A stretch of 64,000 nucleotides of DNA from Rhea pennata (taxonomy: Eukaryota > Chordata > Aves > Rheiformes > Rheidae): assembly GCF_028389875.1 (NCBI RefSeq), contig NC_084670.1:11193383-11257382 (forward strand), read 5' to 3'. The translations under genes and the position numbers were made by a program. The notes under the pieces are model-generated. The model ran no database searches. It was not told where the DNA came from and saw only the letters and a list, made by a program, of their open reading frames with translations. Positions 24,001 through 64,000 of the stretch are shown here, piece after piece; the first letter of the stretch is position 1; every line of letters starts with the position of its first letter.

Positions 24001-27000
24001 TCACTGAACCATCTTGTTTCCCAATATCCAGTAGCTGGCTTCTGCTACATAAAAACAGAACAGCAAACAGTTCTTCAGTATAGGGACCTTCCTCAGCAGC
24101 TTTTCCTGGAGACCATTTGAATGCAGCAGCAAAAGCTCAAAAGTTCAAGCAACTGGCCAGTGCAAACATAGCAGGAAGTACCTAAACACAGTGCACTGCT
24201 GCCTTAATAGCGCTCCTCCCTGCTGTCCCACTGCAATTCCATAGCAAAGGTGGTAGTGGACTGTCCCAGGAATGGACCCTTTTAACCTTGTCCATCTCCC
24301 AGCTCTAAGGCAGGATCCACTCCATCAACTCTGTAAAGCAAGTACTCAACAGTGTTTGCTTTGGGTGCTGAGATTCTAACTCGCCGCTAATGGGGAAAAA
24401 ACACGCACTACAAGCAGCTCCCTTCTATCCTGTGTTGTTTACTTTATTAAGGCTAGGTGCAATTCCACTCTCTTTCAACTGCTGTGTACCTGAGGATGAT
24501 CTGGGCAGGTGACTTGCTGTATTTTTCTGCCAGTTTTTTGATTCCAGGTTCTTCTAGAAGCACAGGCTCATCTGGATGTTTCCATGATCGATCTGGAGAG
24601 CCAAGTGGACTGTAGGCAGTGACAACCAGTCCTCGCTTCTGGCAGTGAGCTATCAGCTCATTCTGAGCTAGGTAAGGATGACATTCTACCTGTTAAAGCA
24701 ACACACAATGAGTTCCTGGTGAGAAGATTTCAGCACAAAACTCTAAACAAACAGGAGGTCAAAGGCATGGCCACCAGTCACCACGGAAGTTCATTCCAGT
24801 TTCAAAAAAAACTTTACAAGCCTCTAACTTACCACATGGAGAATGAAAAACACTCTTGGAGCCTAAGATTACAGCAAAAGAAGGATAGCTCTAATACATT
24901 TCTAGAGTGCTGGGTATCTAATAGATCATCCAACAAGCAAGGAAGCTCTGTAGCAGAATGAGTTAAGTTAGCCCTCTTGCTCTTTTTCTCTTACAAACTA
25001 AGTAATCCCTAATCATTCCTCACACGGAAGGCACCAAACTCTCCTATTCAACTAAGTAGGCATAAACAGCCACAGGACATGGATAGAGACCTTCTCCCCA
25101 AGGAATCTGTCCAAGTGGAAAGGCCTCCACTGCATGCCTACTCCATTGTAGAGGTGGCTGTACTCCTCCCTGTACATCAGAAGCTGTGCATTTTGCGCTA
25201 AATGGGTAGCGATGCTTTGCAGTTCTTTAATCCTGTGGACAAACACCAGAAAGGCATTTCTCCCCTCCTTTACTCATCTTACCTGGAGCACGCTTGGTTT
25301 GACAGTGGCCACACCAAGTACATCATCAATCTGACGGCTGTTGAAGTTTGACAGCCCAATGGCTTTCACAAGGCCTTTTTCTACCAGCTTTTCCATAGCC
25401 TTCCAGGTATCCTTGTAATCAGTGTAATCATAACGTATCATGCCATCAGGATTCTTTGGGAAGAGATTGTCCCCTCGTCTATAGCATCAAAGAAAAAATA
25501 TAAGTGCATACCACATGATGATTTCTATTTTATCGGTTGTTCACTAAAAATAAATAAATAAATAAAATCCACAAAGAACAAACAAAAAAATACTTTAAAA
25601 CATTCTTGACAGTTTACAGAGTTTGCAAGATAGCATATAAGATGCTCTAGGTGACCCTGCTTGAGCAGGGGGGTTGGACTAGATGATCTCCAGAGGTCCC
25701 TTCCAACCTTACTGATTCTATGATAAGATGAACAAACTTTTCCTTTGAATTCACCTGTGCTGACTTAACCTACAGGAAATTGCCTTAGACACTGTTTTGC
25801 CTATTTAAATTTGCTGTAGAGTACTCAGAACTACTTACCTACAGGGCAGCGACTCCATGTCCCCAGGCAGCCACTGTATACAAGCAACAGTTCATCACAC
25901 ACTTTGACTCTAGCAAAACAGCTGATTTAGAGAGGAGCAACTCAGAGGCAGCTTTTGTTTTTCAAGCTGTGTTTTTAGAACTGATATTCTTCATAGTCTA
26001 TTTGAAGTTGCTATGAAAATATCTTGGTTTAAGGGATATCTAGGAGAGACTATATCTAGCTTTCCCATTCCCTCTGGGCTCTGTAGCAGTGTCAGCACTG
26101 GATGCAAGTACAGATTCTCACAGAAGTCTTAACTTGTACACGTTGCCCGTAGGTTAGGTGTGTTCCCAGTTAATCATACCAGCCCATAAAAATAACAAAG
26201 AACTTGGTTATGCCAAGTGATACCACCATACTGTAAAGGGGTTATAACTGGTCTCTGAGCAATCTGTGCTTGGATGAGTGCCAGCAATTCTACCGGGAGA
26301 GTGCTGCTTCATAACCACTGTGGGATACTGCTAGGTCAGATCTCAGAGGCTGTCTTGCATCACTAGCTAAACAGTGAATGATGTGAAAGATGGCAGCAGC
26401 TAGGAGCAAGGGGACACGTTTTCTGTTCATATAGCTGATAGATCTAGAACAAAAAATAACTTAGAAAAACTTAGGAGCTCCCAGCACAGAAAAACAATCT
26501 TATATGCCAACAGTAGTAAATTGAGAGGTTATTTTCTAGACTTACAGGAACTGTGATTTTAATATAAAAGTCTGTTTTAAATTCCTGTTGAAGTAACATT
26601 CTTTAGCTCAGTTTCTCAATACAGCAGACTTTATAGCTAATTAAGCATTGAAGTAGATTGAAGTAGAGCTAATGGAAAACAGAGTGAATACTTTTGAACG
26701 AGAAAATATGAAACTGCTTTATGAAAATATCACTCATCAACTTTTTTTCATTTCCATGAGCAGTTTAAGTAATTTTTATTTAGAGTAATTAAATACACAT
26801 CATTATTTATATTACGTGACATCACCATCCAAGCACACAATGCTTTGATGGTTTCTGAATTGACTGAAAACAAACCTATTTCAAAACAGGGTAATTTTTA
26901 AACAGACATTCTTCCTCCAGACCAGCTCTGGTTTAAAACATTTCCTCATTCTGTTAGGCTGAGGAGTATATTTAGAATTTAAGGGTCTTTCCTCCTATCA

Positions 27001-41329: not shown

Positions 41330-42050
41330 GAAGCTCCCTATCGAGCAAGTGCTCGGCGATCGCGGCCAAGGTGCCAAGTCATGCTGCCTTTGCACAGGGG
41401 GGCGGCCGGGCCCCCCGCGCCGCCGCGTGGCCTCGCGAGAGCGGGGCGCTATAAAGGCGGCGGCGCGGCGGGGGCTGCGGCAGTGCGGCGCTTCCTGCAG
41501 GACGAGGAGGAGGAGGAGGAGGAGGGAGCCCTGAGCCGCTCGCCCCTTTGTGTAAGCGCCGGCGGATGCCGCCTCGGGGGCCGGGGGCGAGGGGGCGCGC
41601 CTGCCGCGGGGCGGCCGCTGCGGTGGGGTGCAGTTTGCTGGGCTGTTCCGCGATTTTTTGTTTTCGTTCTCTTCCCCCTTCCCCCCGCCTCCCCCCCCCC
41701 CCCCCCCCGCGAAATCGCTCGCCTTTCGCTCTGCGCGGATGGGGTCGCGAAGGAGGCGCCCGGAGGGGGTGCGGGGCGACCTCTCGGTCTCTGGAGCCCC
41801 CCCGAGGAGGGCTCCGCCGGGGTCCGGCCTTCTCCCGCTGCTTTTTTTTTTTCCCTCCCGTTTTTGTGGGGGTGGGGAGCGGCAGAAGGGGAAGTTAACC
41901 CTTTCTTGGGCGCCTGCCTTTATCTGCTTTCTGCTCGCGGGGAGGGGCTGGCCGGGGCGCGCCCGCAGGGAGCGGCTCTGGCAGCAGCGCCCAGTGGCGC
42001 CGGCCGCCCGACCCGGCCCGGGGTCCCGAAAGCTTCGGGTTAAGTCTTGG
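41330..42050 (+). promoter_or_regulatory. PRDX1: PRDX1 CpG-island promoter and non-coding exon 1
   Basis: A CpG island carries a TATAAAG box at 41450-41456 on +, so transcription should start near 41480. Exon 1 would end at 41551 before GTAAGC and contains a (GAG)n tract at about 41501-41524. CTCGCGAGA at 41432-41440 resembles the TCTCGCGAGA promoter element. An 18-bp C run at 41691-41708 lies in the first intron. Confidence 0.65.
41373..41382 (-). promoter_or_regulatory. PRDX1: Antioxidant response element (NRF2-type)
   Basis: On - the site reads ATGACTTGGC, an exact fit to RTGACNNNGC, about 70 bp upstream of the TATA box. PRDX1 is an established NRF2 target in mammals, so the site is a reasonable oxidative-stress input. 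Binding is inferred. Confidence 0.55.
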
Positions 42051-42979
42051 CGGGACCCACGAGCATGTAGGCCTCTGATCTTGACGCTTAAGAAGGGTGT
42101 GTGTGGCTGAGCTGAAGGAGCCTGCCATTTGCAGGGGGCAGCAGTCGTTTGTCGCAGAGCGATTTAGTGACCTCTTGTGCCGGTGATGCTTGGGTCTCTT
42201 TTTCTGAGCTTTTTTTTCGGCTAAGTAAACTCAGTGGTCTGCATACCTGACTGTGGTATACTTGAACCGAGGAGATTTGTGACAGTATCATTCTTAATTC
42301 TGACCGCAGCTCAGTGACTTAACCACACTTTGGTGACAATCTGAAGGTAGTGAAGGGGAAGGCTTGATGGGAACCATAGTCTTTCCACTATGGTTCAGTT
42401 ATCCTAAAGCTACGAATTTCCAGGAGTGCTGGACTAGTTACTATAATTGCAATTTGAAGATAATGGAGGCTATGTGCAGCTATAAGCACTGAAAGATATT
42501 CTGACCTGATTTAACTGTACTTGACTAGCAGTAATCTATATGCCTCTCTCCTAAAATGAAAGGAAATAAAATACTGAATCTGTGTTTTGTTACACTGTGG
42601 ATTAGGAAATGCTGTGGTTAAACTCCAAGCAGAACATGTGAGAACACGTCCTAACCCTGCAGAGAAAAGTAGAAATGTTGGCAGGTTGCAGTGGGTGCTC
42701 CAAAGGAAGCAGATGGCTCTTTTGCAGTACAGGGCAGCTATGTCTCCTAAGCTGATGTTGTCCCCTTATGCAACATGGTGAGGTGTTTGGTACCTTATAG
42801 CTTAGAAAGGGAAAATATTAAAGAGCAAATCTGACAGGTTTTATTTGACATTGAATCCCTATAAAAACATTCCAGGGGACTTGCTGATGGGACAAATAGA
42901 GGAGGACTAGCATATTACTGAGCAAGCAGATGACCTTGAGCTTGACTAAGAGGGAAAGAAAGGAATTCAGTGATATAAA

Positions 42980-43400
42980 ATGCAGAGTCATGCACTTCAG
43001 ATTAAACAGCTATTGCTTATAAGATAAAACTCACTAGTTGGAGGTATCTCAAAGGAAATACTGTGCAGTGGCTGCCCCCCTCCTTAAAGAACTGTAGTTC
43101 TAGAATTGTATCTGCATTCATGGCCACATTAGATGTACAAAAGAGGTATTACTGTCATTCTGCTAGACCTTCAGTAAAATCCTGTGATCATGCTGTATAG
43201 TTCTGGCCACCTACATTCCTAAGACTTGCTCAGTGTGCTGCAGTTGAACTCCCTGGTTGAACAAATGGCTGAAGAGCTTGTTGCAAGAGGGAGTTAAAAG
43301 CGAAGGCTGAGAGATAGCTGATTTGCGTATCCTCACAGTATTAGTTACAGATAGTAGAGAACCTCTCAAAGATAAAATGGTGCTAGTAAAGGCTAAACTG
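42980..43400 (+). mobile_element. Possible ancient CR1/L3-type LINE relic
   Basis: AAAATGCAGAGTCATGCACTT and, further on, ATCCTGTGATCATGCTGTATAGTTCTGGCCAC resemble diverged forms of the CR1-group 3' coding-end blocks (aagtgcaaggtcctgcacct and tactgtgttcagttctgggg). Order and orientation agree, but divergence is high. One arm of the inverted duplication lies inside it. Confidence 0.3.
43030..43183 (+). repeat. Left arm of a 154/158-bp inverted duplication
   Basis: This 154-bp stretch is nearly the reverse complement of 44151-44308. By eye the alignment has three substitutions and one 4-nt indel (an extra TATC in the right arm), about 98% identity. Both arms lie in PRDX1 intron 1, with 967 bp between them. 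Confidence 0.95.
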
Positions 43401-44150
43401 GCCAGTTTGAACTTGAGCTGAAAACTGAAGCCTTATGACTTCTGGACTAGTTCTGTAGGAGGAATGTGGCTGCTGAAGGAGAATGAGCCAAGAAACGAGG
43501 TGCGCTCAAGCTGCTTAAAAACATACTGCCTTGCCAGCAAGAGATCCTCGAATCTCTGCTTTCCCTTGCAATATGAGACTCATTAACCTTTCAGAGGCTT
43601 GTCTCCCAGTCAACTAGATGTTTATAGCTCTGACTAGGTGAATGAACTTCAGAATGTTTCTGTGTGAGCTTAAGAAATATGGTTTGTAAGTGTTACCTCT
43701 CTGGAAGATTACACTTCAGAAGTAACTGGAATTCTAATGTGATAGATAAACAAATACTGCATTCTCAAACTGAGCAAAAGAAGCACCATACAAGAACTGG
43801 TACAGTGTGTGACAGTAACATTTAAGGCAGGCAGCCTGAAGTACAGTTTTGTCCCTATGCCTCCTCTTTAATAGACTTAAGCAAACCGGGAAAACATCTA
43901 AACCCTAGCCTTAGTAGTTTAAGACTTGGTACAGCTTTAATTGTTAACATAACATTTTATTCCCAAGTGTACTGTGAGTCTTCCACTTGCAAACAAAACA
44001 AGATTTAACTACACTTCAGCCTTTTAAATAACTAATTGCTGTTTAGGAAGGTTTATAGGGATGTTAATGTATATGCCATACATCTAAAAAAAAAATGCAG
44101 TGTTCAACTGCAGCACACTGAGCAAGTCTTACGAATTTACTGAAGGAAGA

Positions 44151-44308
44151 AGGATTTTACTGAAGGTCTAGCAGAATGACATTAATACCTCTTCTGTACA
44201 TCTAATGTAGCCATGAATGCAGATACAATTCTAGAACTACAGTTCTTTAAGGAGGGGGGCAGCCACTGCACAGTATTTCCTTTGAGATAGATACCTCCAA
44301 CTAGTGAG
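44151..44308 (-). repeat. Right arm of the inverted duplication
   Basis: Its reverse complement starts CTCACTAGTTGGAGGTATCT and ends CAGTAAAATCCT, like the left arm. Flanking sequence does not match the left arm's flanks, so both ends of the duplicated unit are sharp. Confidence 0.95.
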
Positions 44309-44321
44309 GTATTAATAGTTC

Positions 44322-44345
44322 AACTGCCTATATGCATAGGCAGTT
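44322..44345. repeat. 10-bp-arm hairpin next to the inverted duplication
   Basis: AACTGCCTAT and ATAGGCAGTT pair perfectly around a 4-nt loop, 13 bp after the right arm. A similar perfect 9-bp hairpin (GAACCATAG / CTATGGTTC, 8-nt loop) lies at 42371-42396. Confidence 0.75.
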
Positions 44346-44861
44346 TAACAACTGTTCTTTTGTTCCAGAATCAACAGGAAAATAAAATTCAAGGTCTTAA
44401 CTTCCCTTGTGAACTTGAAGGGTCTCCTCACTTAAATCAGAAGATTTAGACTTTCTAACTTGCTCACGAAGTGAAACTGGAAGTTTATTGAATGCTCTAG
44501 AACTGAAGTTCTCAGACTGAGCTGTTACCTGGTCAAAGGCAACAATTACTGTTACTTGCTTAGTCTTGTGGTTCATAAATCTTGTACAGTTAGCGATCTA
44601 GCTAGTAGTTTGGTCTGGATTGTATTTATCTGAAGGTGACTGTACTCCTTTGTAGGATTAAAAACATGTTGTTGTTACTGGACTACCCAGATGGCAAACT
44701 CAAATCTAATTTTGCTCTTAAGTTTTGCATTGCAAGACCAACTGCTGATACATTGTCTGATATTCGTTCTAAATTGATAAGATGCTTTGAATATTTGCCT
44801 TAGGTACAAACATACTGATGTCTTAACTGTGCCATTACTAACTCTTCTAGACCAAATCAAG

Positions 44862-47800
44862 ATGTCTTCAGGAAAGGCATTCATTGGAAAACCAGCCCCT
44901 GACTTTACTGCCACGGCTGTAATGCCAGATGGACAATTTAAAGACATCAAACTCTCTGACTATAAAGGTAAGATTATCTGTTTCTCTGACTATACAAGCA
45001 CAGTATCCACGCTTGAAGGAGGGGAGGACATCTAAGTAATAAATTTTTGATTTGATTTCAAAGTAATAGTGACCACTGGTAGCAGCCTGAGGGATGTAAC
45101 TTGTGCAGTGATTCTGTAGAGTGATGGCTGAAGAAGACTTAAAGCTGTGGAGAAGCTGTGACAGCATGGCCAAATGTCTGAACTGTAATTCCTGCTGAAC
45201 TGTAATTCCTGCTAATCGACAAAATTTCCCTAAACTAGTGCTGGATCAGGCTTATTTGACTTGTTTTATCATGCTACAAAAAGGATGCAACATCTCCAGA
45301 GAATTGTGTGGAACAGCAATATCTTGTTTCTTGTGAGTTTTCTGGCAATGGGAAGTAGGCTTTTTCAGTTAACCAGTGAAGTTTCTTTCTCTGGAGTACT
45401 ATAAAAATGCCTTAAAAAAAAACAAAAAAAACAAACAAAAAAAACACCTCTCTTTAAATCCAAGTGAAAGGCTTAAGTAATCAAGTACTGATGCAGATTA
45501 ACTTGGAAGGAGGCATCTCTAGTTAGAAGCTCTGTACCCTCAGGCTCTCTAAAGGCAGTTGTCAGGTGTAGACTAGTCAGCTAAACAACAGAGAAGTTTT
45601 CTGGCCTCTGTTCTTTCAGGCATGTGATATCCTGCATTCCGTAAGTAAAATTGTAGAGTCTTCTGGTGTAACTACTGAGATATGCTCTGAACCAGCCTGG
45701 AGGGTTAGACTCAAGAGACAGATGTTTCTCTGTCAAATTCGAGCATCCAGTTCAGCAGATACAATACAAAACCCCTACCCAAGTGGTCTGTTAGCTGTAG
45801 GATGACCTTGGATCATGTTGCAAGTGGTATTTAGCTGAAAGGAAAAACCCCTGTGCCCTTTATAGGGGTTGCTACCTATAAAGCAAGCCTCAAACCTGCA
45901 CCTGCAGTATGCCATTTAATCTTTAAAGGTACTTTTATATCTAGCTGGTTCTCCTCTGTGGATATCTGAATGTTGAATATGACAACTATTAAAAGCCAAG
46001 GTAAAAAAGACTAACTGGTGACACTGCTCCTCATAGGAAAGTATGTTGTGTTCTTCTTCTACCCTCTGGACTTCACTTTTGTCTGCCCAACTGAAATCAT
46101 TGCATACAGTGACAGAGCTGATGAATTCAAGAAAATTAACTGTGAAGTAATTGGAGCTTCTGTTGACTCTCACTTTTGCCACCTTGCCTGGTAAGAATCT
46201 GTTTCTAACCCAATACAATGTTCTGACAGGCTCAGTTATTACTAGAGCTGAATCTTGAGCATATTAGAACTCTGATTACTGAAATACCAAATAAAGCCAC
46301 TAAGGAAGTATTGGTAATGCACGTACTTTCCAACAGAACTGAGAATACTGATCAGTTCTGATGCTGCCTCATGGCAGACCAATTGCAATACTGGAGAAAG
46401 GATCAGTGTCTGTTATAATACCTTGCACTTTACCCTGAACTGTCTCTTTTATAATACTGACTTTTCTGTTTCAGGATCAACACTCCCAAAAAGCAAGGTG
46501 GTTTGGGTACTATGAAAATTCCATTGGTTTCTGACACCAAGCGTGCCATTGCCAAAGAATATGGTGTACTTAAAGAGGATGAAGGTATTGCATACAGGTA
46601 ATATGCAATGAGGTAAACTTGAAGTATTGTCATATATGTTGCAATACATGGAACACATCAAATGCACACAACTTGCATATACTTGAAAGTCTTCAGCAAG
46701 CCAAAACTATCGGCTGTTCTAGGTATAAACTAGTCTAAGCTATGAGATACCAAAACTGAAGTCTAAATACTAAAGCGAATTATTTAGCATCTCTTGTAGG
46801 TAAGTTAGACAGTAAATGCATACTGCCTTGCTTTGATCATAGTATTACATAGAACCACTGCTTACCTATCTAGTAAGCACAGGAGTGTCATGTACACAGG
46901 TGAGCTGCTGTAAATATAATGCAAGACTACGGCAGTAATCACTTTTTTTCATGATTTTAAGTCCACTGATTAAAGTACAGAGATTAAAAACCTGAGCCTT
47001 ATCTTGTGTTCAGCTATCCAGAAGTTGCTAAGGAAGCTGAACTTCTAACTTAATGTTGACTGGAGGACACTGGCCAGTCAGCTGCCATTTTTTTTTCCTC
47101 TTTAACTGTGTAGCTGCTCCTCTAATGGAAGAATGCTTCTCCTTCAATTCACTTTCCTTTGTTTTTTTTCTTCCCTTCTTGTTCTGCCAGTGTCTTCCTT
47201 AAATAGGAAGTACTATTTTTTCTGCTTAAATGTTGTGACTTACCTCCTGCCCCACTCAGGGCTCCTGTTCAATACCAAGCTCAAAGCTGTTACTGTTTCA
47301 ATGCCTCACATACACAGAAGGTATTATAGGGGGGAGGAGAGTGGAAGAGGAAGTGTCAGTAGTACTAGATCACAGAACATCTTGTCATGATAGGATATTA
47401 AACTTGAATATTGAAATACTTCAGGCTAACCTGAAGTTTTAACTTTTTTTTTTTTAAGAGGTCTTTTCATAATTGATGAGAAGGGGATCTTAAGGCAGAT
47501 AACAATCAACGATCTTCCTGTTGGCCGTTCTGTTGATGAAACACTCAGACTTGTGCAGGCTTTTCAGTTTACTGATAAACATGGAGAAGGTAAGATTTAT
47601 TTTTTTCTAAATCTTAATGTTTTTTTAGAGAACGATTTCAACTAGAGAAGTTAAATAGAGGCTTGATTTGAAAGATATTCAGTACATATAAATTTGTGTG
47701 TGGCAAGTAAGCGTGCCTCTTAACGCTTGTAGAGTTGCCTGAGGGGCATCATTATATTTATTATGTTCCAGTTAATAGCCCATTGAGTGCTGAGCCCATG

Positions 47801-56109: not shown

Positions 56110-56222
56110 GAGACTTTCAGGTTATGTTTACACTGCCCTCAGGAACTGTGAGCCCAGTAAGTTAATGTTTCATGTACTATAGCAAAATATTTTTGAAGCA
56201 TCTGCGCTGACAAATGAGATTA

Positions 56223-56303
56223 GAATCACAGAATGGGTAAGGTTGGAAAGGACCTCTGGAGATCATCTAGTTCAACCTCCCTGCTCAAGCAGGGCCACTT
56301 AGG
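56223..56303 (-). mobile_element. CR1 LINE 3' tail, - orientation
   Basis: Read on +, AGAATCACAGAATGGGTAAG, GTTGGAAAGGACCTCTGGAG, ATCATCTAGTTCAACCTCC and CTGCTCAAGCAGGGCCACTTA are the reverse complement of a CR1 end. It is the same subfamily type as the copy at 25641 and similarly truncated. Confidence 0.9.
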
Positions 56304-62967: not shown

Positions 62968-64000
62968 CTTTGGCAAAGACAAACAAATCTCCATTAAAAC
63001 AGGGTCACCACTCTTTTGCCAGTGGGCATGCAGTAATTGGAAAAGAAAAGAAAAGAAAAGAAAAGAAAAGAAAAGAAAAGAAAAGAAAAGAAAAGAAAAG
63101 AAAAGAAAAGAAAAGAAAAGAAAAGAAAAGAAAAAAGTTGAAAGTAGTGCAGCTACCTTCATTTGCAACCCAGATATGCAGCCTGTATAATTCCTTCCAT
63201 TCAAACCAAGCAGCTTTGCATACTGGGATTTACAGTTTCTGGAAGCTGTATTTTGATGTGAGAGATAAGGATGATCTACTGCATTCAGCTGAAGACAGCC
63301 CTTTATCCAACTCTGTCCAGAAACTGTAGATGGAAGTATCAGCAACTAGTCTTGCCAGTGCAGATCAGATGTTTTGGTTTAGAGAAACCTTTTTACAGTT
63401 GTGTCTGATTCTCACTTGGATTGTTATTTAGACAAGGTTCCTAGTGCTTGTACTACTTCTTAGTAGGATTTGGCCAGTTCACAGCCCTTCTGCCCCCTTG
63501 AAAGCTCCATCACCAATTTTTAACTTCACTTACTTCTACAGCAAATACCTGTTGTGCCAGCAGATGCAAACAAATTCATTATGAATCAAAATCCTACATA
63601 CAAATGCCCCTGCCAACAACAACAAAAAAAACCCTCACAGAATCTGTAGCCTAGAAAAGCAGACTTCTCTCCAAATAGCCAACTATCCAAAAGAACTTAA
63701 AGGCTTTTAACTGCAGGACACTGCATGGGAAATAAACCATGGGAATACAGCTTACTGTCAAACATCCAAAGTACTTTTCTCCCTAAAGCTATTTTACCGT
63801 AATGGAAAGATAAAAGTCAAAATCAGGTGTGTCAAGGACAGAAAGGGCATCCAATTGCCAGTCTTGCTAACACAACAGAAAGCTGAAGAGCAACATGCTC
63901 TGAAATTTTTCTTCTATCCAAGATTTTCTAGGAGATCCCATTGACTCTTAAGCCATTCCTGGCACAGTGCTGTTTTCTGGAGTTCTACCATTGAGAGGGA
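62968..64000 (-). other. MMACHC: MMACHC intron 1 (partial)
   Basis: Intron sequence running off the window edge. I looked for the N-terminal exon (a PFGFEVYPF-like motif) on - and did not find it. It contains the AAAAG microsatellite. Confidence 0.6.
63041..63134. repeat. (AAAAG)n microsatellite, about 18-19 units
   Basis: A nearly pure pentanucleotide array. On the MMACHC coding strand it is (CTTTT)n and ends 73 nt before the acceptor of exon 2. Confidence 0.95.

Follow-up and report, generated by a model that had tools for sequence, protein, structure and literature searches.

An inverted duplication in the putative first intron of PRDX1 in Rhea pennata, best explained as a local repair or replication error

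Here we show that the inverted duplication present in a stretch of Rhea pennata DNA of 64,000 nucleotides (hereafter the window) is genuine and that it is longer than first described. The pair is best explained by a single small error of repair or replication, of a kind already described, and we assign a probability of roughly 80% to the reading in which templated repair or an error of replication copied one arm of the pair (arm A), in inverted orientation, into a site about 1 kb downstream.

Anatomy and setting of the inverted pair

Comparison of the window with itself using BLAST aligned arm A (43030-43249) with the reverse complement of arm B (44102-44308) over 224 columns at 87% identity (E 5e-74), with a spacer of 852 nt between them. 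The parts of this unit are the following:

43030..43249, + strand: arm A, probable donor, 220 nt (alignment; direct repeat between its ends at most 5 nt)
44102..44308, - strand: arm B, probable inverted copy, 207 nt (alignment, end-repeat test)
43184..43211, + strand: 28-nt stretch of arm A with 11 nt (44140-44150) opposite in B (alignment)
43250..44101, no strand: spacer, 852 nt, single copy by assembly search

The core of the pair (43030-43183 against 44151-44308, with 967 nt between the two) differs by three substitutions and one 4-nt indel in 154 aligned sites, in agreement with the arms, the differences and the separation given in the preliminary description. The substitutions, written as the base of A and that of the reverse complement of B, are at 43125 (C/T), 43140 (A/G) and 43152 (C/A), and the indel is an additional 4-nt tandem unit in arm B. 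The extent of the pair had been underestimated, as a second, inner block of 38 nt with two mismatches (43212-43249 pairing with 44102-44139) had been missed; core and inner block are separated by the 28 nt of A that stand against 11 nt of B. Arm B also holds two copies of TTTACTGAAGG, 20 nt apart (44136-44166), where arm A has a single one, and this doubling is a second small copying slip, perhaps in the same event.

The location of the pair in PRDX1 intron 1, as claimed earlier, stood up to examination. The protein that we joined by hand from the downstream exon translations matches a Peroxiredoxin-1 chain over 199/199 residues, and the limits of the intron as read from the sequence are approximately 41552-44850 (GTAAG donor at 41552, AG acceptor at 44849-44850). 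The exon after the intron opens the coding sequence:

44862..44864, + strand: PRDX1 start codon, exon after the intron (exon translations, protein match)

These donor and acceptor signals, together with the ATG at 44862, place both arms within what we infer to be intron 1, arm B ending about 540 nt upstream of the acceptor. A literature search covering titles and the beginnings of abstracts returned no earlier report of this PRDX1 intron 1 locus among the papers listed.

Arm A (query 43030-43260) searched against its own assembly (1,268,942,789 bases, 180 contigs) gave two matches, the two arms, and thus no sign of a family of near copies; as words that are very common are passed over in such a search, this result concerns near copies, and old relatives may still exist. 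Only self-matches came from the left flank (42700-43029) and from the spacer (43250-44101). Many dispersed copies, which the preliminary description had named as the mark of a common repeat, were thus sought in this 1.27 Gb assembly with arm A and none was found beyond the two arms, and on this count we rejected two insertions of a common repeat. A search of an E. coli sequence collection, an unlikely place for such a sequence, gave no match.

Inverted pairs of at least 150 bits lying less than 5 kb apart were represented by the PRDX1 intron pair alone in the 264 kb made up of the window plus 20 controls from the same assembly, each 10 kb long (contigs C8 with 8 stretches, C1 with 5, C2 with 3, C3 with 2 and C4 with 2). 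The absence of a comparable pair from the controls (0/20, 200 kb) bounds the base rate, by the rule of three, only at about 1 per 67 kb. Relaxing the same search to E values up to 1e-3 added three rows over window and controls: one is a CR1 pair within the window, and the others are short self-palindromes, found in L014 and L004. The members of that CR1 pair, which at a threshold of E 1e-5 is the only other inverted self-match of the window (78 nt at 90%), are fragments matching the 3' part of CR1 copies of this genome, at 25637-25740 (+) and 56213-56302 (-), lying in opposite orientation about 30.5 kb apart. Among simple repeats, the window includes a GAAAA array at 63040-63134 (19.0 copies, 100% matches).

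Inverted duplications can come from chimaeric fold-back reads, and this source of error is what would speak for an artefact of the assembly or library. A read of that kind would mirror everything past one point, but here the mirrored part is 0.2 kb long and gives way to unlike sequence, several differences separate the arms, and exon 2 comes next in its place. We consider such an artefact barely credible, and its fold-back form was rejected on the grounds that the mirrored tract is limited and the arms are not identical.

Junction marks and the direction of copying

The two arms differ in what lies at their ends. Centring a box of about 40 nt on each end of an arm and comparing the two boxes, we found the longest direct repeat to be the 10-nt word GTTCAACTGC in the case of B (at 44102 and 44318) and 5 nt in the case of A, and 8/3000 random 207-nt segments of the window showed an end repeat of at least 10 nt. 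The same word occurs once elsewhere in the window, inverted, at 43240-43249, which is the inner end of A, so that B is flanked by a word that also marks the edge of the donor. The marks around arm B and at the edge of A are these:

44102..44111, + strand: left direct repeat GTTCAACTGC, at which the putatively copied tract also ends
44318..44327, + strand: right direct repeat GTTCAACTGC
43240..43249, - strand: inverted occurrence of this 10-mer at the inner edge of arm A, candidate donor microhomology
44309..44317, + strand: 9-nt filler GTATTAATA separating B from the right direct repeat
44318..44349, no strand: hairpin of 32 nt with 13/14 pairs and a loop of 4, starting at the right direct repeat

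Arm B is therefore probably the copy and arm A the donor; A as the inserted arm was rejected, its ends sharing no direct repeat longer than 5 nt. The earlier preference for a local inverted copy over two independent insertions agrees with these results, given the two genomic places of the unit and the insertion-like junction around B. The filler plus 2-3 nt of B forms GAGGTATTAAT, which has an inverted occurrence inside B at 44181; as 30/2000 random 12-mers find a match of at least 11 nt within 1.5 kb, this is only a hint that the filler was templated by arm B. The junction sequence at the filler end of B has no microhomology for a return step.

The hairpin that starts at the right direct repeat may predate the event or have come with it. 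No shuffle out of 200 folded as well as the hairpin with its surroundings (44309-44360), and hairpins of equal strength amount to some nine loci among the 50 overlapping rows listed for the 264 kb, merged by eye, five of them not simple repeats. One hairpin among the rows listed, at 2515-2550, lies in G+C-rich, non-simple sequence and has 13/14 pairs.

From the anatomy that we observe, we infer the following steps. A break, or a halt of synthesis, would have occurred at the hairpin-forming site now at 44318-44349, and the free 3' end, terminating in GTTCAACTGC, would have paired with GCAGTTGAAC at 43240-43249 of A, either by fold-back on the same nascent strand or by invasion of another. About 210 nt of A would then have been copied as reverse complement and the end joined back to the site it came from, with 9 nt of filler, leaving GTTCAACTGC on both sides of B. 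The replacement of 28 nt by 11 nt would have taken place during the event or afterwards. The route may have been synthesis-dependent strand annealing in the repair of a break, or else a switch of template where a fork had stalled. Both the direction and the timing of the copying are deduced from one sequence.

The 10-nt direct repeat on both sides of B could also be read as an ordinary target-site duplication, left when a piece of the locus was inserted by way of RNA or carried in by a transposon. A target-site duplication leaves unexplained, however, why the repeated word also stands at the edge of the donor, and the donor is just 0.85 kb off; moreover, the run of A residues to the left of B (+ strand) lies outside the insert and B has no terminal poly-A. 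Among the proximal cases reported in the excerpted text of Pace et al. 2009 (PMC2671141), poly-A/T tails were present in 0/39. Taking these points together, we regard an insertion of this kind as very unlikely.

Age of the pair and background of the donor

The core divergence of 3/154 sites amounts to 1.9% (Poisson 95% interval 0.4-5.7%), and if neutral change is taken to run at 1.9e-9 per site per year the pair would be about 5 My old (1-15 My) if conversion has played no part. The preliminary description had proposed either a recent event or upkeep by gene conversion, and of these a recent event suffices at some 5 My and conversion is not needed. An older inverted pair whose arms have been held alike by conversion would account for the high identity within an intron, with 3/154 sites differing, and arms in one molecule are able to convert each other. 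Nevertheless, a few million years at the neutral rate would account for the identity without any such process, and the 28/11-nt and 4-nt differences between the arms persist; hence we consider it unlikely, and we keep the recent copying of A into B as the preferred reading.

Whether one arm lies in older LINE-like sequence, as had been claimed, received divided answers. We compared 42900-43400, with tolerance to frameshifts, with a C-terminal protein sequence of CR1 ORF2. The score of 59 was reached by 5/2000 dinucleotide shuffles, and 12/800 control segment-strands scored at least 59, the highest of them (up to 557) being presumably true CR1 copies; the assembly holds many matches to a 143-residue form of that protein sequence (48,357 candidates, of which 150 were scored). 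On the other side, nhmmer with eight CR1 copies found nothing in 42800-44600, and arm A was unmatched among the tblastn rows listed for CR1 (40 at most). The candidate stretch is as follows:

42926..43315, + strand: possible decayed CR1 ORF2 stretch crossing arm A (frameshift-tolerant comparison; missed by nhmmer and tblastn)

Arm A may thus lie inside a decayed CR1 LINE stretch. The alignment spans both edges of A as well as the 28 nt that have no counterpart in B, which fits A as the older arm.

Predicted RNA duplex and comparison with known systems

In the minimum-energy fold of 41552-44865, 185/220 bases of A are paired with B, and the fold of 42950-44450 contains uninterrupted helices of at least 12 bp measuring 78, 31, 30, 17 and 14 bp. 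The transcript is hence predicted to form a long, nearly perfect intramolecular duplex, and the pre-mRNA duplex of about 150 bp anticipated in the preliminary description holds as a prediction. Long duplexes are what ADARs edit, and editing of this one is plausible; the duplex itself would be a passive consequence of the duplication, which ADAR may edit. In chicken, CR1 is reported to carry more than 35,000 edited sites, which Porath et al. 2017 (PMC5625713) put down to pairing between inverted copies.

The strong predicted duplex in intron 1 and the reported editing of chicken transcripts with inverted CR1 copies (PMC5625713, as excerpted) speak for a duplex that is functional and selected, regulating PRDX1 through ADAR editing or splicing. 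Against this, B stops about 540 nt short of the acceptor, the window is devoid of Rfam matches, and the duplex follows from the duplication without selection. We judge a selected duplex to be highly improbable, and a function is not needed to explain the duplication. A known structured RNA was rejected in view of the 0 matches to Rfam at gathering score in the window, as was a role of the arms as flanking inverted repeats that promote circular RNA, since the two share a single intron.

The pair shares features with several classes of short duplication. Doublets, which Thomas et al. in 2004 are said to have described as mostly same-strand and 25-100 bp long, resemble it in being short paired copies lying close by for which break repair was suggested as origin, whereas the PRDX1 pair is inverted and of about 210 nt. 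Short-range template switch mutations (PMC7954356 and PMC8794818, as excerpted) likewise involve a reverse-complement copy made via the nascent or the complementary strand, but at smaller scales than the approximately 210 nt taken from 0.85 kb away here.

In size, spacing and junction marks the pair resembles the proximal duplications that Pace et al. 2009 (PMC2671141) ascribe to repair. In human they count 824 of these, with a mean length of 162 bp, a maximum of 619 bp and an average spacing of 1.2 kb. At the breakpoints examined there, microhomology ranged over 2-9 nt, filler over 1-68 nt and target-site duplications over 4-21 nt, all three occurring together in 2/39 proximal cases, and one example is an exon duplicated in opposite orientation inside an ACSBG2 intron. 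Like these, the PRDX1 pair is a short unit (220 and 207 nt, within their range of at least 50 bp and up to 619 bp) with a donor less than 5 kb away (852 nt), and its junctions show microhomology, filler and a target-site-like repeat without a poly-A/T tail. Its microhomology of 10 nt is, in contrast, 1 nt above their range; their copy had to interrupt a transposon, whereas here it is, if anything, the donor that lies in one; and, set against their criterion of an empty orthologous site in a relative or of an interrupted transposon at the acceptor, the PRDX1 insertion is known from one assembly, in which the profile of eight CR1 copies gave no hit over 42800-44600.

If the copying took place as proposed, the pair offers a clean bird example of inverted copying through repair or a switch of template. 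The excerpted text of Pace et al. 2009 (PMC2671141) counts six repair-mediated duplications in chicken, and that number comes from a transposon-limited screen, so that cases outside recognisable transposons bear on the frequency of such events in birds. The pair is like the inverted CR1 copies of chicken (PMC5625713, as excerpted) in that a long, nearly perfect duplex, here a predicted one, would form in one transcript, but there two insertions of a dispersed repeat pair with each other, whereas here a unique segment has been copied locally. The pair also illustrates how a single mutation can be enough for a long RNA duplex to arise, with no need for two inverted transposons.

PRDX1 is an antioxidant gene. 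It is conceivable, although we think it improbable, that through one recent mutation this bird lineage acquired a ready-made, heavily edited double-stranded RNA within intron 1 of that gene. Were it so, a locus of unique sequence could show the birth of a new ADAR substrate, and any effect of it on the expression of the host gene.
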